Origin: Thermovibrio sp.
GTDB taxonomy: Bacteria; Aquificota; Aquificia; Desulfurobacteriales; Desulfurobacteriaceae
DNA length: 52,263 bases
Assembly (NCBI GenBank): GCA_015488335.1
Contig: WFNZ01000022.1
Location: 1-52,263, forward strand
Reading direction: 5' to 3'
The first letter of the stretch is position 1; each line of letters opens with the position of its first letter. The translations under genes and the position numbers were made by a program. Below are positions 6,513-15,506 of the stretch, in pieces. The notes under the pieces were generated by a model that ran no database searches, was not told the origin of the DNA, and worked only from the letters and a program-made list of their open reading frames with translations.

Positions 6513-6541
6513 TTGACATTTAAAATATTAGCGGCTAAAAT
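6513..6541 (+). promoter_or_regulatory. Sigma70-type promoter of the hao operon
   Basis: TTGACA at 6513-6518 and TAAAAT at 6536-6541 are separated by exactly 17 bases, close to consensus. Transcription would start near 6548, leaving a leader of about 36 bases with AGGAGG seven bases before the hao ATG at 6584. A small inverted repeat (TTAGCGGCTAA, 6528-6538) overlaps the -10 and could be an operator. No FNR-type TTGAT-N4-ATCAA site is visible. Confidence 0.8.
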
Positions 6542-6583: not shown

Positions 6584-7960
6584 ATGAAGGGGAAGCTCAG
6601 TAAGCTTCGCACAGGGCTGCTTGCTGTAACCTTCGCTGCTGCAGCAGTGATTGGTCTTAATACTACCGATTCTCAAGCAGCCCTGAGAAACATTTCCAAA
6701 GAATCTCAAGCGTGCCTTGGCTGTCACAAGGGAATGAACCCTGCCCTTGTTCAGCAGTGGGCAACCAGCAAGCACGCAGACGCTGGCGTTGGCTGTTACG
6801 AGTGTCACATGGCCAACAAAGGCGACAAAGACGCCTTCCAGCACTTCGGTTTCACAATCTCCACAATCGTTTCTCCCCTTGACTGTGGAAAGTGTCACCC
6901 AACAGAAGCTAAGGAATTTACACAGTCCTACCACGCAGATGCTGCTCACTTCGTAGGTTCTCTTGACAACGTTCTCGGTAGGATTGTTGAGGGTGAGCCT
7001 CTCTTCAACTTAGGTTGTGCACAGTGTCACGGTAGAACAATTCCAGTTAAGAACGGAATGCCCGTTCTCGGTCCATGGCCAAACGAAGGTGTAGGTAGAA
7101 TCAACCCCGATGGTTCCAAGGGTAACTGTTCTGCTTGCCACTACAGGCACAGCTTCAGCCTTAAGCAGGTTCGTGAGCCTGACACATGTGGTAAGTGTCA
7201 CCAAGGTCCAGACCATCCACAGATTGAGATCTGGGAGCTCTCCAAGCACGGTATTGCTTACAAGGCTCACCTTTCTGAGATTGAGCCGACACTTGACAGG
7301 GCTAAGTGGGTTCTCGGTGAGGACTACTACCAGGCTCCAAACTGTGTAACCTGCCACATGGGTGCTTCTGTAACAGGAGCTAAGGCTACACACGACGTTG
7401 GAGCAAGGCTCTCCTGGACACTCCGTCCACCAATCTCCAAGCACAAGCCAAACTGGCAGGCTAAGCGTGCTGAGATGAAGAAAGTTTGTGCTGCCTGCCA
7501 CCAGAGGGTATGGGTAGAAGGCTTCTACTACCAGTTTGATAACCTTGTAAACCTCTACAACGAGAAGTTTGCTAAGCCTGCGGCTGCTATTATGAAGTTC
7601 CTCAGGAGCAGGCACCTCATTGACCCAACACCTTTCAACGAGAAGATTGAGTGGGACTACTTCCTCCTCTGGCACCATGAAGGACGTAGGGCACGCCACG
7701 GTGCTGCTATGATGGCTCCCGACTGGACACACTGGCACGGTCTCTTCCTTGTTGCTAAAAACTTCTACTTTGACCTCATTCCAGATGCAGATAAGATCGT
7801 TAGAGAGAAAGGAACAAGGGCTGATAAGAGAGCCTGGGCTGAGTTCAAGAGGAAGCTCTTCAGCAGTCCTGAACACAAGTGGTTCAAGGGTATGCCCAAG
7901 TCTGAACTCAGGAAGATTGCTGAGTTCTATGCTAAGCGCTACGGTGAAACTGCTCAGTAA
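6584..7960 (+). CDS. hao: Octaheme cytochrome c, Hao-like (epsilon-Hao type nitrite/hydroxylamine reductase)
   Basis: This is a 458-residue periplasmic multiheme protein. A Sec signal peptide ends at S-Q-A (about residue 32), and eight CxxCH motifs start at residues 44, 71, 101, 145, 182, 202, 254 and 302, the spacing pattern of the hydroxylamine oxidoreductase family. After heme 8 comes the segment R-H-G-A-A-M-M-A-P-D-W-T-H-W-H-G (371-386). In oxidative HAO of ammonia oxidisers a Tyr in the C-terminal part cross-links to the catalytic heme; I do not see an obvious equivalent Tyr here, as in epsilonproteobacterial Hao proteins proposed to run as reductases. The setting just upstream of nap genes supports a role in reducing nitrite made by NapA. 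It has a good promoter, and a hairpin after its stop suggests part of the transcripts end there. The product (hydroxylamine or ammonium) cannot be decided from sequence. Confidence 0.9.
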   Translation: MKGKLSKLRTGLLAVTFAAAAVIGLNTTDSQAALRNISKESQACLGCHKGMNPALVQQWATSKHADAGVGCYECHMANKGDKDAFQHFGFTISTIVSPLDCGKCHPTEAKEFTQSYHADAAHFVGSLDNVLGRIVEGEPLFNLGCAQCHGRTIPVKNGMPVLGPWPNEGVGRINPDGSKGNCSACHYRHSFSLKQVREPDTCGKCHQGPDHPQIEIWELSKHGIAYKAHLSEIEPTLDRAKWVLGEDYYQAPNCVTCHMGASVTGAKATHDVGARLSWTLRPPISKHKPNWQAKRAEMKKVCAACHQRVWVEGFYYQFDNLVNLYNEKFAKPAAAIMKFLRSRHLIDPTPFNEKIEWDYFLLWHHEGRRARHGAAMMAPDWTHWHGLFLVAKNFYFDLIPDADKIVREKGTRADKRAWAEFKRKLFSSPEHKWFKGMPKSELRKIAEFYAKRYGETAQ

Positions 7961-7967
7961 TTTCAAT

Positions 7968-7992
7968 AAGGGGGAGCTCCGTCTCCCCCTTT
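7968..7992 (+). terminator. Hairpin after hao, partial terminator
   Basis: AAGGGGGAG (7968-7976) pairs perfectly with CTCCCCCTT (7983-7991) around a 6-base loop. Only a short, weak T stretch follows. It would set hao mRNA level above that of the downstream TPR and nap genes. The 5-prime arm and loop contain a GGAGCTCC motif. Confidence 0.65.
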
Positions 7993-8019
7993 CATCAATA
8001 TTCCCCCCTGGAGGTTATC

Positions 8020-8925
8020 TTGAAAAAGCTGCTAATCGTCCTTTTAATAGCCACTTTGTCTGTCTCTCCGTCATTAAAGGCGAAAGAGGCAAAATTTGAA
8101 AAAGATGTTGAAAAGAAGATTACCTGTCCTGCAGACTTCTTAAAAAATCCTCCTGTTTACTTCTACTGCATCTATCGGGATTACCATAACCATAAATATG
8201 ATGCTGGAATTAAAAAGGCTAAGAAAGCACTAAAAGAAATAGGACCTTTATTAAGGAAAAATCCAAACGGAATAGTTCCAAATGCGGTTCAAAAAGATGC
8301 GAAACTTAGAGATCCACATGTAAAAAGTGTAGCATCTGATTTACATCTTCTATTAGGAATGCTTTATTATCAAAAATCTATGAATCTACAAGATACTTCT
8401 GTTAAAAAGGTCTATACTGACTTTTACGATAAGTTAGAAAAGGAAGGATTTGACTTTTTCCAGATAAGTGAGCTTATGAATCTTTACAGTAAAAAGAAAT
8501 TGTTTCCTGATGCTTTTACCAAAAAAGATGAAAAGAAATATACAGAACTCCTGAAAAAAATGGGAGTAAAAGAGAGTGATTTAGATAAATTGACAGCTGA
8601 AGCTCAGAAGGAGTCTGATAAATTAGAACAGGAGAGAATGGCCTATTTAAGGAAAGCTGTTGAAGAGTTCAAAAAATCAGTTGAAGTGGACCCTGATAAT
8701 GCTATAGCTTATTACCAACTTGGTAACTTATATAGTGGAGTTTTAAGTGAGGGAGCTCCCCAGGACTCCGAAGCAGCAGAAGAGGCCTACTACAGAGCTG
8801 CTATCCTTTTGAAAAAACAGGGAGACATTTCAGGATATAAAGAAGTTGTGAAAAGGCTGGAGCTCCTCAATCCAAAGTCAAAGTATCTGAAACTCTTGCA
8901 GGGGAAGAAAGGAAAAGATGCGTAA
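8020..8925 (+). CDS. Exported TPR-type protein of unknown function
   Basis: The 301-residue product begins with a Sec signal peptide (K-K-L-L-I-V-L-L-I-A-T-L, cleavage near residue 20). Two cysteines (in I-T-C-P and Y-F-Y-C) lie shortly after it. The protein is strongly lysine-rich and helical, and from about residue 205 shows TPR-like pairs (A-V-E-E-F-K-K-S-V-E-V-D-P-D-N-A-I-A-Y-Y-Q-L-G-N). The TTG start has GGAGG five bases upstream. It lies between hao and nap genes and overlaps a second TPR lipoprotein, so it may help assemble or organise the respiratory cytochromes; that is inference from position. The middle of the gene (about 8160-8720) is visibly more A+T-rich than hao and the napA gene. 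I do not recognise a named family. Confidence 0.75.
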   Translation: MKKLLIVLLIATLSVSPSLKAKEAKFEKDVEKKITCPADFLKNPPVYFYCIYRDYHNHKYDAGIKKAKKALKEIGPLLRKNPNGIVPNAVQKDAKLRDPHVKSVASDLHLLLGMLYYQKSMNLQDTSVKKVYTDFYDKLEKEGFDFFQISELMNLYSKKKLFPDAFTKKDEKKYTELLKKMGVKESDLDKLTAEAQKESDKLEQERMAYLRKAVEEFKKSVEVDPDNAIAYYQLGNLYSGVLSEGAPQDSEAAEEAYYRAAILLKKQGDISGYKEVVKRLELLNPKSKYLKLLQGKKGKDA

Positions 8926-9418
8926 AGGGGTTTTCTCCTTAATTTTAGCCTCTGTTTTAGCTTCATGTGGAACAGACAAGAAAAATGTCTCTTATACTCC
9001 ACCGCTCCAGTCCCAACCTTCTCCACTTGAGCAGAAGATCTCTGAGGGAGCATCACAGGAGCTCCCCGTTACATCACCCGTTAACCCGGAAAAGTTAGAC
9101 CTCTGCACCCGCCACCTCCTTTTTGCAGACCAGTACATAACAGCTTCAGACTACCCTGAGGCAGCAGATGAGATAAAAGAGGCAGAGAAATACTGTAAAC
9201 CTGGTGACCCGAGGCTCCTCTACATGGAAGCCGTTATGGCCGATATAAACGAAAACAGAAAGAAAGCCTATGAGCTTTACTACCAGGCTGCTAAAGGGTA
9301 TATAAAGAAAGGGGACCTTGACAGTGCCTTTAAGTGCTATTCCGGAATGATATCCATAAACCCCAACGGTAAGGAGATCAAAGAGCTAAAGCCCTATTTT
9401 GAGGATGATAACTATTGA
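8918..9418 (+). CDS. TPR lipoprotein of unknown function
   Basis: The 166-residue protein has a lipoprotein signal with the lipobox L-A-S-C (Cys17), then a proline- and serine-rich linker to about residue 55. Helical repeats follow that read as two or three TPR units (Y-P-E-A-A-D-E-I-K-E-A-E, A-Y-E-L-Y-Y-Q-A-A, S-A-F-K-C-Y-S-G-M-I-S-I-N-P-N). It would be anchored to a membrane facing the periplasm. The ATG lies inside the end of the previous TPR gene (8-base overlap), so both are probably made together. A role in cytochrome or Nap assembly is suggested only by its place between hao and napC. Confidence 0.72.
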   Translation: MRKGVFSLILASVLASCGTDKKNVSYTPPLQSQPSPLEQKISEGASQELPVTSPVNPEKLDLCTRHLLFADQYITASDYPEAADEIKEAEKYCKPGDPRLLYMEAVMADINENRKKAYELYYQAAKGYIKKGDLDSAFKCYSGMISINPNGKEIKELKPYFEDDNY

Positions 9419-9454
9419 AAAATGAATAGATTTTAGTTAGAATTGTATTGCTCC

Positions 9455-9470
9455 ATAAGAAATTTCTTAT
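9455..9470. promoter_or_regulatory. Perfect 16-bp palindrome upstream of napC, candidate operator
   Basis: ATAAGAAATTTCTTAT is its own reverse complement and lies in the 76-base gap before napC, just ahead of the ribosome site. It overlaps a TATAAA -10-like hexamer at 9468-9473, whose best -35 (TTGTAT at 9443-9448) is 19 bases away. It is a plausible binding site for a dimeric regulator controlling the nap genes. It could also fold as a weak A/U-rich hairpin. Confidence 0.45.
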
Positions 9471-9494
9471 AAATTCAGCTGCAAGGGGGTGGAA

Positions 9495-10058
9495 GTGACG
9501 GAGAAGACAAAAGCCTTTATAGTAGGTGGGATTGTAGGCATCGTCATTGCTGGAGTGGGAGCTCTCATCTCTGCCCAGATGATTGAGAACACTGCTGAGC
9601 CAGAGTTCTGCGGTTCCTGTCACGAGATGAAACCCATGTTTGAGGCATGGGAAACAGGCCCACACGGTCCACTTGGAAACAAGAGAGGAGCCATTAGAGC
9701 AGGCTGTGCCGACTGCCATTTGCCCCACACCAGTGTTCTTGCTTATTTAATTAATAAAGCAAAATTCGGAACTAACGACGCTATTGCCCACTATTTTAAA
9801 GGTGGCTATGCAGACGATCTTGAGCACTGGATTGAAAAGAGAAAAGAAAGAGAACACTACGTTTTTGTCTCAAACTGTGAACGCTGCCACGTTCATCTTC
9901 CAGACAACGTTATGCACGAGAAACTCAAGTCTGGGGAAATTAAGGGAGACTGTCTTACCTGCCACTGGTACGTTGGCCACGGATTTAACTTTGAGGAGAA
10001 GTTAAAGGAGTTTTTCAGCAAAAAAGGAGTAAAATCTAAAGAAGAAGGGCACGAATAG
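9495..10058 (+). CDS. napC: Membrane-anchored tetraheme quinol dehydrogenase, NapC/NirT family
   Basis: The 187-residue protein has one N-terminal membrane anchor (residues 7-27) and four CxxCH heme motifs starting at residues 39, 71, 128 and 153. The first is followed by the E-M-K-P-M segment that in NapC/NrfH proteins supplies the quinol-site heme ligand. It should oxidise quinol and pass electrons to periplasmic cytochromes, here NapM/NapA and possibly Hao. The GTG at 9495 has AAGGGGG upstream with a suitable spacer; the GTG at 9489 is directly abutted by that stretch and so is less likely. It is 23 bases ahead of napM. Confidence 0.9.
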   Translation: MTEKTKAFIVGGIVGIVIAGVGALISAQMIENTAEPEFCGSCHEMKPMFEAWETGPHGPLGNKRGAIRAGCADCHLPHTSVLAYLINKAKFGTNDAIAHYFKGGYADDLEHWIEKRKEREHYVFVSNCERCHVHLPDNVMHEKLKSGEIKGDCLTCHWYVGHGFNFEEKLKEFFSKKGVKSKEEGHE

Positions 10059-10081
10059 AACACTTATAGGGGAGGTGCAAA

Positions 10082-10498
10082 GTGAAGGCAAAGACACTAT
10101 CACTGCTTGCCGGCCTGATGATAGCCGGAAGCGGGCTGGCAATGGCAGACCAGCACCCTGTTCCACCAAACGTGATTGCTCAATTGCCGCCTCAACAACA
10201 ACAATGTAGGGTATGCCATCAAAAAGTAACTCCGAAAATTTATCAACAGTGGGCACACTCAAGGCACGGTATAAACAACGTCCGCTGCTTCCAGTGTCAC
10301 GGAACGTTTAGTGACTTCCACAAGGTTCCACCTATTACAAAGTGTATGGCCTGCCACTACCAGGAAGTTGTTACTATGCAACAGAAGAAGCCTGGAGCAA
10401 AGTGCTGGGACTGCCACGAAGCTCACATCTTTGAGTTCCACGGCAACGGTGTAAAGAACATTAAAACAGCAAAAGACTTTAACCCACAACAGTACTAA
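10082..10498 (+). CDS. napM: Periplasmic tetraheme cytochrome c NapM
   Basis: The 138-residue product has a Sec signal peptide (cleavage near A-M-A, residue 22) and four CxxCH motifs starting at residues 42, 69, 88 and 108, with extra histidines available as distal ligands. A small tetraheme protein between napC and napA fits NapM of the napCMADGH arrangement, which replaces the diheme NapB as electron carrier to NapA. No napB is present in the window. The GTG start has GGGGAGG seven to eight bases upstream. Confidence 0.88.
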   Translation: MKAKTLSLLAGLMIAGSGLAMADQHPVPPNVIAQLPPQQQQCRVCHQKVTPKIYQQWAHSRHGINNVRCFQCHGTFSDFHKVPPITKCMACHYQEVVTMQQKKPGAKCWDCHEAHIFEFHGNGVKNIKTAKDFNPQQY

Positions 10499-10513
10499 TT
10501 AAAGGAGGGCACG

Positions 10514-13186
10514 ATGGGAATTGGAAGGAGAGATTTCCTCAAAAAGAGTGCTGCTCTAACGGCAGCATCTCTTGTGGGGATTAACCTTAAGATAAAGTCT
10601 GACGGAGTAACCCTCGGAGAGTCTGCTTCTGCAGGCGAAAACCTTATGAGGGTTCCTGAAGAGGTTAAAAGGTCACCTGCCTTTAAGAAAGAGGGAGGAT
10701 ACACCTGGGTAAGGGGTGTATGCCGTTTCTGCGGAACAGGTTGTAAGGTATGGTTAGGTTTCAAGGATGGTAAGCCTGCAGTTATAAGGGGTGAGAAGAA
10801 CTCTGCCATCAACTTTGGTTTCCTCTGTATGAAAGGAATGCTTTTCTACAAGATCTTCAGGCACCCAGACAGGCTTACACAGCCCCTCTACAGGAAGAGC
10901 AAGAAGGAACCCTTCAAGCCAATCTCCTGGGAGAAGGCCTACGAGATTATCGCCGATGAGATGATCAAGGCTATTAAGAAGGGCGAGTGGACACCTTTTG
11001 GTTGGTCTGGAATTGCCTACTACGGTTCTGGACAGGCTTTAACAGAGGAGACATACCTCTTCCAGAAGCTCTTCAGGTGCATTGGAACAAACCACGTTGA
11101 GGGTAACCCAAGGCTCTGTATGGCATCTGCCGTTGGTGGATACCTTACATCCTACGGTACAGACGAGCCTGCTGGTGGATACGCAGACTTTGACAAGGCT
11201 CAAACTGTTTTCATCATCGGTTCAAACACAGCTGAGTGTCACCCGATCCTCTACCGTCGTATCATGCACAACAAGCTGAAAAACCCCGGCGGTTATATGG
11301 TAATCAACGTTGACCCAAGGGTTTCACCAACATCTAAGATTGCAGACATCCACATGCAGTTTAAGCCTGGAACAGACCTTGCTCTTCTTAACGCTATTGC
11401 TCACGTAATAGTTTACGAAGGTCTTTACAATAAAGATTTTGTTAACAAGTATTGTGCATTCCACATCTACACTAAGGGTAAAGACAAGAATCCTCTATTA
11501 GGACATCAAGTTTCTTTTGAAGAATACAAAAGATTCCTTGCCAGGTACACACCAGAATATGCAGCTCAAATCTGCGGTGGAAACATCACTCCCGATATGA
11601 TTAGAAAAGTTGCAAGGCGCTTTGCCACAACGAGAACTGTCTCCATCTGGACAATGGGTCTCAACCAAAGGACGAGAGGTGTTTGGGTTAACAACCTTGT
11701 TACAAACCTTCACCTCTTAACAGGTAACATCTGTAAAGACGGTGCAGATGCCCTTTCACTTACAGGTCAGCCAAACGCCTGTGGTGGTGTTCGTGAAGGT
11801 GGTGGACTCTGTCACATTCTTCCAGGTCACAGGCTTGTTAAGAATAAAGCAGATAGAGAAGGACTTGAGAAAATCTGGGGAGTTCCAAAAGGAACAATTC
11901 CTCCAAAACCTGGTTATCATACTGTTAAGATGTTTGCTGCTATTACTTACAGTGAGAGAGACAAGAAGAGATTCCCCGGTCTTAAGCCAATTCACTTTAT
12001 CTGGGTAGAAGAAACTACACCCATGCAATCTCTTCCAAACGTTGGCCATTACAGGAAAGGTTTTGAAAGAGAAGATGTTTTTGTAGTTGTTAACGAGATA
12101 TTCCCAACGAGAACTACTCAATTTGCAAACCTGATTCTTCCTACTCCGTTCCACTTTGAGAAGACTGGTGTTTACGGATGTACAGAGCGTCGTTCACAGT
12201 TAACTCCTGTTGCAGTTAAAGCTCCCGGTATGTGTAAGCCTGAGCTCCAAATTATCGTTGAATTTGCCCAGGTTCTTGCTAAGAAGCTTAGAAGAGAACG
12301 TGACCCAAGGCTTCGTGCAAGAGCCCACACAGTTTACCAGTGTGTAGCTCCGTTTATTGAGGCTGCTAAGAAAGACCCATGGTGGACGCTGGCTAAAGAG
12401 GTCTGGAGTGAATACGCTGGAAAAGTTACCAAGGGAAGGGATAACGACCTTTCCGGTGCGACTTACGAAGTTCTTCTCGCTAGACCAGATGGTGTTCAGT
12501 GGCCTGCACCAACAGTAGAAATTGCTATGAAAGGTGGAACCCTCAGAAGGTTCGTTGTAGGAAAAGACCCGCTTGCTACAGAGTTTGTAGAGAAACATCC
12601 AGAATATAAGGGCTGGAGAGTTGTTGATTATGGACATCTCCATAATCTTCCTACATTACCTCCAGAGAGCCGGGCAAGGTTCTGGATCTGGCTCAGACCT
12701 TACAAAGGACCTGCTGAGCCGCCAGATGCTGAATATCCGTTCTACCTCTCAACGGGTAGGGTTATTGACATGTGGCACTCCGGTTCTATGACCGGTCGTG
12801 TTCCAGAGCTTGCTTCTGACTATCCGTATGCATGGGTTGAGGTTAACCCGAAAGATGCTCAACGCCTCGGAATTAACCCAGGTGATCTTGTTCTCGTTGA
12901 GACACGCCGTGGTAGGAACATCCTTCCTGCAAGGATCTCAACAGACGAAGGACCTATGGAAGGAATGGTTTTCGTCTACTGGTATGACCAGGAAAAACAC
13001 AGAATGATTAACTTCTGCACACTGGATGCTTATGACCCAGGTTCTAAGCAGCCCGAGTTCAAGATCTGTGCATGCCGCATCAAGAAGTATGCTCCTGCTA
13101 AGCCTCTCAAGCAGTTCCTCGTTAAGCTTGTTAAGGTTAAGGGTGGATATCTCCACAACGTTGAAATTGACCGCAGTGAATACTAA
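10514..13186 (+). CDS. napA: Periplasmic nitrate reductase catalytic subunit
   Basis: NapA reduces nitrate to nitrite. The 890-residue protein starts with a twin-arginine signal (R-R-D-F-L-K at residues 5-10). A [4Fe-4S] site follows at Cys70, Cys73, Cys77 and Cys105. Cys202 in G-N-P-R-L-C-M-A-S-A is the expected molybdenum ligand. Bis-MGD-binding blocks follow, including a C-terminal molydopterin dinucleotide-binding domain (about 760-870). The chain is longer than the roughly 830 residues of the enterobacterial enzyme. The ATG has AAAGGAGG upstream. Codon choice is distinct from most neighbours (many GGT, CGT, ACA), which fits high expression, and GAGCTC is almost absent. Export would use the Tat system encoded at 22.4-23.5 kb. 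Confidence 0.96.
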   Translation: MGIGRRDFLKKSAALTAASLVGINLKIKSDGVTLGESASAGENLMRVPEEVKRSPAFKKEGGYTWVRGVCRFCGTGCKVWLGFKDGKPAVIRGEKNSAINFGFLCMKGMLFYKIFRHPDRLTQPLYRKSKKEPFKPISWEKAYEIIADEMIKAIKKGEWTPFGWSGIAYYGSGQALTEETYLFQKLFRCIGTNHVEGNPRLCMASAVGGYLTSYGTDEPAGGYADFDKAQTVFIIGSNTAECHPILYRRIMHNKLKNPGGYMVINVDPRVSPTSKIADIHMQFKPGTDLALLNAIAHVIVYEGLYNKDFVNKYCAFHIYTKGKDKNPLLGHQVSFEEYKRFLARYTPEYAAQICGGNITPDMIRKVARRFATTRTVSIWTMGLNQRTRGVWVNNLVTNLHLLTGNICKDGADALSLTGQPNACGGVREGGGLCHILPGHRLVKNKADREGLEKIWGVPKGTIPPKPGYHTVKMFAAITYSERDKKRFPGLKPIHFIWVEETTPMQSLPNVGHYRKGFEREDVFVVVNEIFPTRTTQFANLILPTPFHFEKTGVYGCTERRSQLTPVAVKAPGMCKPELQIIVEFAQVLAKKLRRERDPRLRARAHTVYQCVAPFIEAAKKDPWWTLAKEVWSEYAGKVTKGRDNDLSGATYEVLLARPDGVQWPAPTVEIAMKGGTLRRFVVGKDPLATEFVEKHPEYKGWRVVDYGHLHNLPTLPPESRARFWIWLRPYKGPAEPPDAEYPFYLSTGRVIDMWHSGSMTGRVPELASDYPYAWVEVNPKDAQRLGINPGDLVLVETRRGRNILPARISTDEGPMEGMVFVYWYDQEKHRMINFCTLDAYDPGSKQPEFKICACRIKKYAPAKPLKQFLVKLVKVKGGYLHNVEIDRSEY

Positions 13187-13192
13187 TTTCTT

Positions 13193-13220
13193 GAGGAGGG
13201 GTTTTTCCCCTCCTTTTTTT
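13193..13220 (+). terminator. Strong intrinsic terminator between napA and napD
   Basis: AGGAGGGG (13194-13201) pairs with CCCCTCCT (13207-13214) around a T5 loop and is followed by an uninterrupted T run. This is the best-formed Rho-independent terminator in the window. napD, napG and napH therefore depend on read-through or on a promoter in 13221-13266, which is A+T-rich but shows no clear -35/-10 pair. Confidence 0.88.
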
Positions 13221-13266
13221 CCTCCCATATTTATCTGATTTTCAGAATAAAATAGAGAGGTATATT

Positions 13267-13638
13267 ATGCCTATAGTTAGTTGTATTGTTACAACTCTAC
13301 CTGAAGAGGGTAAGACTGTTGAGAAAAAACTTCTTGAAATACCAGGAGTGGAAGTTTATGGCGGTGGACTGAAAGAAGAAGAAAATGCTTATCACATTGT
13401 AATTGTCCTTGATGCGGAGCGTTATTCGGATTTAGAAGAAATTGAAAGAAGGATAAAAGAAATAGACGGCATCCTTCAAATGGCTGTTGTTGAAGCCCAC
13501 TTTTTGGAAGAGTTTGAAAAGATAGAAGAAGGGGAGATTTATCCCATAAATCCGTTTAGAGGGCTTAGAAAAGCGGAAAAAGAGGCGGAGAGAGCCTGGC
13601 TTGGAGAAGATGAAAATGGAGAAAAGGAAGTCCACTGA
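13267..13638 (+). CDS. napD: NapD, NapA signal-peptide-binding maturation chaperone
   Basis: This 123-residue cytoplasmic protein has the NapD ferredoxin-like pattern: an opening S-C-I-V-T-T strand, a helix with P-E-E-G-K-T-V-E-K-K-L, a V-E-V-Y-G-G-G strand and a closing V-V-E-A-H-F strand. NapD binds the Tat signal of NapA and holds it until cofactor loading is complete. The last 40 residues form a charged tail longer than in enterobacterial NapD (about 80-90 residues). The ATG has GAGAGG upstream. The end overlaps napG by 23 bases. Confidence 0.85.
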   Translation: MPIVSCIVTTLPEEGKTVEKKLLEIPGVEVYGGGLKEEENAYHIVIVLDAERYSDLEEIERRIKEIDGILQMAVVEAHFLEEFEKIEEGEIYPINPFRGLRKAEKEAERAWLGEDENGEKEVH

Positions 13639-14293
13639 AAGCAGGAGAAAATTCTTAAAAGTTTCCCTGGGAGCTTTCCTCTCTGGAGCTCTCACATCCT
13701 GCGACCTCTCAAGGTTTAAAAACCCAAAAACAATGGTTAAATCCCCCATCGGTCCAAACGTTCTCCGTCCTCCCGGCGCCGTTCCAGAGGAACACTTTGC
13801 CCAGAAGTGTATCAGGTGCGGAAGGTGTGGAGAGGTCTGCCCTTACCACTGCATAAAGTATTTTGACGTTAAAACAGGCGGGGTTTTCTCAGGAACTCCA
13901 TACGTCAACGTTATGGAAAAGCCCTGTTATCTCTGTATGAAGTGTGTTTACGTTTGCCCCACCGGTTCTCTCGTTCCCTGTGCTAAGGAAGATGTCCGGA
14001 TGGGGGTTGCCGTAATCAACAGGCAGATATGCGTTACCTGGCAGCAGCAGAAAACTGGACTCATGTGTAAAACCTGTTTTGATGTTTGCCCTTTTGCCGG
14101 AGTTGCGATAAAGATTGACCACGACTTCAGACCTTACATCGTTGAGGAAAACTGCACTGGTTGTGGAATCTGCGCCTACTCCTGCATAGCCGACACCTGG
14201 TACGAAAACAAAGGGAAAAAGGCAATAACTATAATGCCGATTAAGTGGAAGAAGATTAAAGAGATAAAACTGGAAGATATTAAGAAATCGTAA
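13616..14293 (+). CDS. napG: NapG, ferredoxin-type electron transfer subunit
   Basis: The 225-residue protein begins with a twin-arginine signal (R-R-K-F-L-K-V at residues 10-16) and has about four [4Fe-4S] motifs, beginning with Cys65, Cys68, Cys71 and Cys75 and ending with C-T-G-C-G-I-C-A-Y-S-C. With membrane NapH it forms a quinol dehydrogenase that feeds periplasmic nitrate reduction. Possible starts are TTG 13601, ATG 13610 and ATG 13616; I chose 13616 because GGAG is then nine bases upstream rather than abutting, but 13610 remains possible. A cysteine at the end of the signal (T-S-C) could be lipidated, which I regard as unproven. Confidence 0.9.
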   Translation: MEKRKSTESRRKFLKVSLGAFLSGALTSCDLSRFKNPKTMVKSPIGPNVLRPPGAVPEEHFAQKCIRCGRCGEVCPYHCIKYFDVKTGGVFSGTPYVNVMEKPCYLCMKCVYVCPTGSLVPCAKEDVRMGVAVINRQICVTWQQQKTGLMCKTCFDVCPFAGVAIKIDHDFRPYIVEENCTGCGICAYSCIADTWYENKGKKAITIMPIKWKKIKEIKLEDIKKS

Positions 14294-14304
14294 GAGGTGG
14301 TAAG

Positions 14305-15174
14305 TTGGCCAGGAAGAGCTTCTGGAAGAGGATAACGATCTGGCGATACCTCTTTCTCTTTGTCTGTTTCGTTATAGTTGTTGGAAACCCGTTTACCAAC
14401 TACTACGGGGATATCAACTTCATTCAGGGATGGTTTCAGTCTTTAGGTGTTGGAAACCTCTGGGTAGTTTCTCCCCTTGAGGGTGTTGAGTCAATTTTGA
14501 CCGCCAAGGCTTTCTATATGCCCTCTCTGGTTGGAATGGTTGTTCCCGTTACCCTTGCTTTTTTAATGGGTAGGGTTTTCTGCAGCTGGATGTGTCCGAT
14601 AGAGTTCCTCTCTATGCTTACGGACAAAATCCTCGGCCTTGTTCCAAAGTGGGGGAATAAGCTCAAGTATAGGCCTGACCTGATAAGGCTCTCTAAGAGA
14701 CTCCTCTGGTTTGCCCTTGTGACGGAGCTCCTCCTCACAATGATTGTTGGCTATCCCCTCTTTGTCTGGTGGTCTCCGCCGGGGCTTGTTGGAAGGGAGA
14801 CGATGTTCTACGTCTTCTACAAGCACGTGACGATTGAGCTAACTATTGTCGTTGTTGTTCTTCTATTGAACCTCTTAACAAGGAGAATGTTCTGCCGGTA
14901 TTTCTGTCCGCTGGGAGCTCTCCTTGCCCTCATTGGCAAGTGGAGACAGCTTGTTATAAGGTACGATGCTGGCGTTTGCGTTGGCTGTAAGGTGTGCGAT
15001 AGCAGGTGCCCTATGGGAATTAAGCCCAGCGTTGGGGAGAGCCAGAGTGTTTACTGCTGGAACTGTGCAGAGTGTGTTGATGCCTGCCCCACGAACGCTC
15101 TGAACTTTACCTGGCGGGATAAGGGAGTTTTAAAAGTTCCCTCTCCACCTGTTGCCCTTGGGAAGAAGACATGA
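14305..15174 (+). CDS. napH: NapH, membrane ferredoxin-type quinol dehydrogenase
   Basis: The 289-residue protein has four or more membrane segments, the paired cytoplasmic C-x3-C-P motifs typical of NapH (Cys93-Cys97-Pro98 and Cys197-Cys201-Pro202), and a C-terminal domain with two [4Fe-4S] motifs (Cys225-Cys235 region and Cys251-Cys261 region). NapH with NapG oxidises quinol in organisms using Nap for respiration. The start is TTG at 14305 with GAGGTGG upstream, leaving an 11-base gap to napG. The preceding stop codons leave no better start. Confidence 0.92.
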   Translation: MARKSFWKRITIWRYLFLFVCFVIVVGNPFTNYYGDINFIQGWFQSLGVGNLWVVSPLEGVESILTAKAFYMPSLVGMVVPVTLAFLMGRVFCSWMCPIEFLSMLTDKILGLVPKWGNKLKYRPDLIRLSKRLLWFALVTELLLTMIVGYPLFVWWSPPGLVGRETMFYVFYKHVTIELTIVVVVLLLNLLTRRMFCRYFCPLGALLALIGKWRQLVIRYDAGVCVGCKVCDSRCPMGIKPSVGESQSVYCWNCAECVDACPTNALNFTWRDKGVLKVPSPPVALGKKT

Positions 15175-15191
15175 TTAAAATTTTATAATCA

Positions 15192-15220
15192 TTGCCAAAA
15201 GGCCTTTTCTCTAATAAATT
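15192..15220 (+). promoter_or_regulatory. Possible promoter of the small cytochrome c gene
   Basis: TTGCCA (15192-15197) and TAAATT (15215-15220) are 17 bases apart in the 77-base gap after napH, about 30 bases before the small cytochrome gene. The -10 match is moderate. A palindromic AAAAGGCCTTTT (15197-15208) lies in the spacer region. Confidence 0.4.
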
Positions 15221-15251
15221 GATACCAGGAAAAACCTTAAGGAGGTAGAAA

Positions 15252-15506
15252 ATGAGGAAAGTTCTTGGTGCTCTTGCAGTGGTAGCTCTTATGGTAGCTC
15301 CAGCTTCTGCAGGTGTATGGGAAACCCAGTGCATGGGATGTCACAACGGTTCACTGGCCCCCTCAAAGGCTCAGCTGAAGGCCAAGTTTAAGAACGCTAA
15401 GGCTTTCATAGCTGCCGCTAAGAAGTCAACAAACCCAATGATGGCTGCTGTTAAGAACAACGACGCTGCCCTCAAGGCTGCTGCTAAGGAGATCTTCGGA
15501 AAGTAA
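15252..15506 (+). CDS. Very small periplasmic monoheme cytochrome c
   Basis: The 84-residue precursor has a clear Sec signal peptide (cleavage after A-S-A, residue 20), leaving about 64 residues with one heme site, C-M-G-C-H at residues 27-31. The mature part is alanine- and lysine-rich and helical, and contains methionines at 52-54 region (N-P-M-M) that could be the distal heme ligand. It has its own AAGGAGG site and terminator at the end of the nap block, so it may be a soluble electron carrier for nitrate respiration. It is shorter than usual class I cytochromes (80-100 mature residues). Function is inferred from location. Confidence 0.8.
   Translation: MRKVLGALAVVALMVAPASAGVWETQCMGCHNGSLAPSKAQLKAKFKNAKAFIAAAKKSTNPMMAAVKNNDAALKAAAKEIFGK

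Follow-up and report, generated by a model that had tools for sequence, protein, structure and literature searches.

An octaheme cytochrome gene and a set of periplasmic nitrate reductase genes form a single block in Thermovibrio sp., and this block probably specifies a periplasmic route that turns nitrate into ammonium, with the octaheme protein, Hao, reducing nitrite by six electrons. The window, as we call the whole stretch analysed, is positions 1–52,263 of contig WFNZ01000022.1. In the proposed scheme, NapC/NapM and NapGH, as expected from their families, would supply NapA with electrons for converting nitrate into nitrite, and Hao would carry nitrite on to ammonium, most likely transferring all six electrons. 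The NrfH-like NapC would act as a quinol-linked donor common to Hao and the Nap branch, while two TPR proteins would serve Hao, in assembly or docking, and not Nap.

Gene content of the block

The block occupies positions 6584–15506 of the plus strand, exactly as delimited in the initial annotation, in the order hao-tpr1-tpr2-napCMADGH followed by a small cytochrome c gene. The gene families named there (octaheme Hao and nap genes) were supported by HMM scans. Of the 'two TPR proteins', the first passes the Pfam cut-off and the second has a weak TPR match below it. The features are as follows.

6513–6541, +, candidate promoter-like site TTGACA-17-TAAAAT before hao (11/12 consensus, best of the region)
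6584–7960, +, hao, octaheme HAO-family cytochrome c, 458 aa, with secretion signal (8 CXXCH; PF13447, 4.5e-21)
7968–7991, +, GC-rich hairpin after hao (a hairpin lies at the equivalent place in nearly all relatives)
8020–8925, +, tpr1, secreted TPR protein (PF13414, 3.8e-8, over cut-off)
8918–9418, +, tpr2, small protein with a lipobox-like N-terminus (in the order) and a weak TPR match (sub-cut-off TPR matches)
9489–10058, +, napC, NrfH-like tetrahaem quinol dehydrogenase (PF03264, Cytochrom_NNT, 7.1e-21)
10082–10498, +, napM, periplasmic tetrahaem cytochrome c (4 CXXCH; PF14522, 2.6e-6)
10514–13186, +, napA, monomeric-type periplasmic nitrate reductase with Tat-like signal (NapA model, 7e-178)
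13193–13215, +, hairpin and T-run behind napA, resembling a terminator (the strongest terminator-like site in the region)
13267–13638, +, napD, chaperone (PF03927, 5.2e-11)
13607–14293, +, napG, ferredoxin-type protein, start 13601 or 13607 uncertain (PRK09476, 9.5e-38)
14305–15174, +, napH, membrane ferredoxin-type quinol dehydrogenase (TIGR02163, 2.2e-32)
15252–15506, +, small one-haem cytochrome c (one CXXCH; PF13442, 2.4e-4)

The nap genes are of the napCMADGH type: NapM is present, NapB is absent and NapA, closest to the monomeric Desulfovibrio enzyme (4e-195), is monomeric-type. The same nap order, lack of NapB and monomeric-type NapA are found in T. ammonificans and Desulfovibrio desulfuricans (PMC5441870). 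NapC scored 85 bits with the NrfH model versus 38 bits with NapC/NirT, both below the curated cut-offs, and NrfH was its only solved relative found in the PDB (1.3e-6). The small one-haem cytochrome c after napH is kept in eight relatives.

The octaheme protein belongs to the HAO family

Both its sequence and its fold place the window octaheme in this family. It carries eight CXXCH haem motifs, as do its intact homologues, and matched all HAO-type PDB entries found with E-values from 1e-11 to 1.6e-49. The best of these, the Ignicoccus octaheme (4qo5, 1.6e-49), was far ahead of the anammox and nitrifier HAOs. A structure was modelled with AlphaFold from 39 relatives (mean pLDDT 75, confidence low around haems 5–6), an earlier model from 15 close sequences having been too poor for use. 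Every significant fold match of the model was HAO-type, with low TM-scores.

In the Nitrosomonas HAO, Tyr467 cross-links the P460 haem. Window Hao lacks this hallmark of the oxidising hydroxylamine dehydrogenase in the alignment, an invariant histidine, H383, taking its place; the correspondence was obtained through two alignments, of Nitrosomonas HAO with a second Hao-like protein and of the latter with window Hao. The Asp267/His268 pair of the Nitrosomonas enzyme is retained as D210/H211. Absence of a cross-linking tyrosine is also the hallmark of epsilon-Hao, and PMC3701875 and PMC5317091 associate its loss with reducing rather than oxidising enzymes. Because His383 replaces the nitrifier tyrosine, the alignment suggests that window Hao is a reductase. 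The Thioalkalivibrio octaheme nitrite reductase (ONR) was rejected as a counterpart: its CXXCK active-site haem is missing here, all eight motifs being CXXCH. The Ignicoccus hospitalis octaheme aligns with most of the length of window Hao but is archaeal, and the alignment does not retain the histidine of the Asp/His pair. We know of no nap context for the Ignicoccus protein.

The block is conserved across Desulfurobacteriales

We compared 24 genomes of Desulfurobacteriales, the window's own included. The window hao clade was present in 16 of them and NapA in 18, with both in 15 (hypergeometric probability ~0.007, from a hand count that ignores the relatedness of the genomes). The gene order from hao to nap is identical in 15 genomes, including the window's and two (G022 and G009) where contig ends truncate the block. 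Since the arrangement recurs in these 15 genomes, it is not due to chance. The initial annotation had stressed the physical joining of hao to the nap genes, which is indeed seen; similar joining elsewhere was already described in PMC5317091. One genome (G002) has a tandem second hao within the block, directly preceding napC.

Three genomes have NapA without the hao clade. G001 is 64% complete and its contig is cut; in G015 a different octaheme lies divergently beside napC, and G016 carries a close homologue of that octaheme at a contig end. Six genomes gave no NapA match; of these, G011 alone has the hao clade, with hao directly beside a NapC homologue and nap absent. This neighbourhood, together with the NrfH-like character of NapC, agrees with the shared quinol-linked cytochrome anticipated in the initial annotation.

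Two genomes can be set beside physiology. G020, taken as Thermovibrio ammonificans, has the whole block, hao and tpr genes included, and its only matches to window Hao were its own Hao, the sole octaheme match, and NapM. T. ammonificans is a proven nitrate ammonifier and does not use sulfite. G010, taken as D. thermolithotrophum, lacks both the hao clade and NapA; that organism uses sulfite, and neither nitrate nor nitrite serves as its acceptor.

Several irregular octaheme loci were recorded. G010 has two octaheme genes (L054, L055), nearly identical and 0.23 Mb from each other. The hao of G003 (L046, C2:46265-47637) is split into two pieces in different frames, which reflects either genuine damage to the gene or faulty assembly. 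In G017 and G023 an extra, different octaheme gene lies just upstream of hao (L041:13085-14779, L045:12644-14302).

Other enzymes of nitrite and hydroxylamine reduction

NrfA (PF02335) gave no match over the cut-off in any of the 24 genomes, so a genome-wide search yielded no NrfA that could displace Hao from the nitrite step; a hidden NrfA was discounted, the sub-threshold matches being to Hao itself or to other octahemes. The siroheme nitrite/sulfite reductase domain (NIR_SIR, PF01077) is likewise absent from all 24, leaving no NirA/NirB as an alternative, and no cytochrome cd1 NirS was found in the window's genome, which is 99.3% complete. The original proposal of Hao instead of NrfA or NirS/K thus holds for NrfA throughout the sampled order and for NirS in the window's genome. 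These searches support Hao as the candidate nitrite reductase at this locus and, as far as NrfA and siroheme enzymes are concerned, as the sole recognisable one in most relatives.

The final step of nitrate ammonification in Thermovibrio and its relatives, which are thermophilic vent bacteria, has been described as unresolved (PMC5441870). The same eLife paper named Theam_1000 as a NirA candidate in T. ammonificans and did not mention the octaheme; despite that assignment, our PF01077 search of G020 found no siroheme domain. The block offers a single conserved candidate for the nitrite step, and the earlier NirA assignment is thereby questioned.

A fairly unlikely alternative is that Hao is a detoxifying reductase, acting on hydroxylamine, NO or nitrite beside Nap, with respiratory nitrite reduction left to a second octaheme or an unrecognised multihaem protein. 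The window's genome does contain a second octaheme Hao-like gene, missed by the initial annotation (contig C70, L034:6459-7787), whose product has the Kuenenia reducing HAO-like complex as its best solved match. It adjoins an AhbD-like radical SAM gene for haem synthase, hemE lying farther along, but it occurs in only 2 of the 24 genomes and is absent from the one taken as T. ammonificans. Further multihaem clusters exist as well: a genome-wide CXXCH scan, the inventory from which rests on half of 200 matches, gave at least ExtM-like, electron-transfer-like and weakly OTR-like ones among the matches listed. However, none of the multihaem proteins inspected among those listed matches exceeded a nitrite-reductase cut-off.

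On contig C2, a multihaem cluster (L125:10856-18580) combines a 24-CXXCH protein with several proteins of 3–7 haems and a cytochrome b561, and may serve electron transfer. A 12-haem protein on contig C23 (L126:2843-5074) is similar to ExtM, which belongs to selenite/tellurite reduction operons, with a score under the curated cut-off. On contig C1 (L124:1918-6051), a 1377-aa protein with 7 CXXCH has a weak match to the octaheme tetrathionate reductase family, far below cut-off.

Reverse-HURM, as in Nautilia, would have Hao release free hydroxylamine from nitrite in a four-electron reduction, and a separate cytoplasmic enzyme would convert it to ammonium. The published module for that route pairs Hao with a NapC/cM552-type donor (PMC3701875), and the reverse-Hao ammonification of Nautiliales had been invoked in the initial annotation. 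It requires Hcp/Har, and the check for hcp that the annotation advised found none in the window's near-complete genome: the sole Prismane-family gene is a CO dehydrogenase (793 bits with TIGR01702 versus 53 bits with the hydroxylamine reductase model, cut-off 361). Because the published route ends in Hcp, it does not fit here as such, and we regard it as quite improbable for this organism; six-electron formation of ammonium by Hao is more probably the better model. It is very unlikely that Hao acts on another substrate, such as sulfite, or as a mere electron carrier beside nap for historical reasons: hao occurs without nap in G011 and, with its tpr genes, without adjoining nap in other phyla, but the active-site Asp/His pair is kept, T. 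ammonificans (taken as G020) does not use sulfite, and the genome taken as the sulfite user D. thermolithotrophum is without the hao clade.

Relation to known nitrate-ammonifying systems

The association of hao with nap is not new in kind. PMC5317091 describes Hao-like octahemes co-located with Nap in Caldithrix abyssi, several epsilonproteobacteria and Denitrovibrio, and nitrite ammonification by epsilon-Hao is known, according to PMC9938260, citing Haase 2017. C. abyssi is a close precedent (PMC5317091): its NapM-type Nap, which lacks NapB, stands next to an octaheme Hao-like gene (epsilon-Hao), and it has no NrfAH, no tyrosine ligand and a proposed nitrite-to-ammonia step. Its own cluster differs in lacking NapC and having a Rieske/cytochrome b pair, and the passages on it mention no TPR pair, whereas in the window hao comes first and NapC is NrfH-like. 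Nautilia profundicola shares Nap, a HaoA without the critical tyrosine and a NapC/cM552-type quinol dehydrogenase (PMC3701875). It differs in using Hcp/Har for hydroxylamine, absent from the window's genome, and in that the locus tag for hao (1280) is far from those for nap (0553-0556) (PMC3701875).

Within the literature searched, the new elements are the Desulfurobacteriales hao clade, the TPR module, the block's NrfH-like NapC and the absence of Hcp, along with a candidate for the unexplained nitrite step in T. ammonificans. If the six-electron reading is right, Hao-based ammonification can do without Hcp, judging by the gene content of the window's genome.

Candidate transcription signals

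The promoter-like site before hao lies at the same place in the closest relatives, and similar sites occur in others. Both the promoter and the terminator scan rest on matching to a consensus, and promoter-like sites numbered 16 versus 10 in shuffles, a mild excess. The hairpin after hao also stands directly behind hao in three of four Nitrospirota/Aminicenantes loci, and the napA hairpin was found in 12 of 12 loci folded, the window included. Stem sequences of both vary among relatives, and the other block gaps tested had no hairpin. Most relatives have a TATAAT-like box downstream of the napA hairpin. We infer that the two hairpins are partial terminators or 3′ ends; because they are conserved after hao and napA, the block may be read at three levels, namely hao, tpr1-tpr2-napC-napM-napA, and napDGH with the cytochrome c gene.

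The hao-tpr1-tpr2 module outside the order

The triplet hao-tpr1-tpr2 recurs in Thermodesulfovibrio, Nitrospiraceae, Magnetocorallium and Aminicenantes MAGs with nap not adjoining (L076, L077, L078, L080). NapA lies elsewhere in the genome in two of the four MAGs and was not found in the other two. In the tree, these four outside loci (Nitrospirota/Aminicenantes) fall inside the window hao clade, and the neighbours of the triplet outside the order include no shared nitrogen genes. Since the triplet occurs without adjoining nap in other phyla, tpr1 and tpr2 appear to go with Hao. The TPR domains of NrfG/CcmI bind NrfA for haem attachment (PMC12285233), and by this analogy the two proteins are likely Hao assembly factors; for tpr1 we propose a role in assembly or docking of Hao.

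More tentatively, the nap-linked octaheme might form a separate lineage of ammonia-forming nitrite reductases, with the archaeal Ignicoccus cytochrome a nearer relative than nitrifier HAO, and apart from epsilon-Hao, no genuine epsilon-Hao sequence being among those compared. The hao-TPR-TPR module could then travel between Aquificota, Nitrospirota and Aminicenantes and allow ammonification without NrfA, a siroheme enzyme or Hcp. We hold this view to be possible but somewhat doubtful.

Two-component regulator genes lie close to hao-tpr1-tpr2 in L077 and L080. In Magnetococcales (L081, L082, L083), a related octaheme (~44% identity) is followed by a 9-haem protein of ~690 aa, with an 8-haem protein in addition at two of the three loci.
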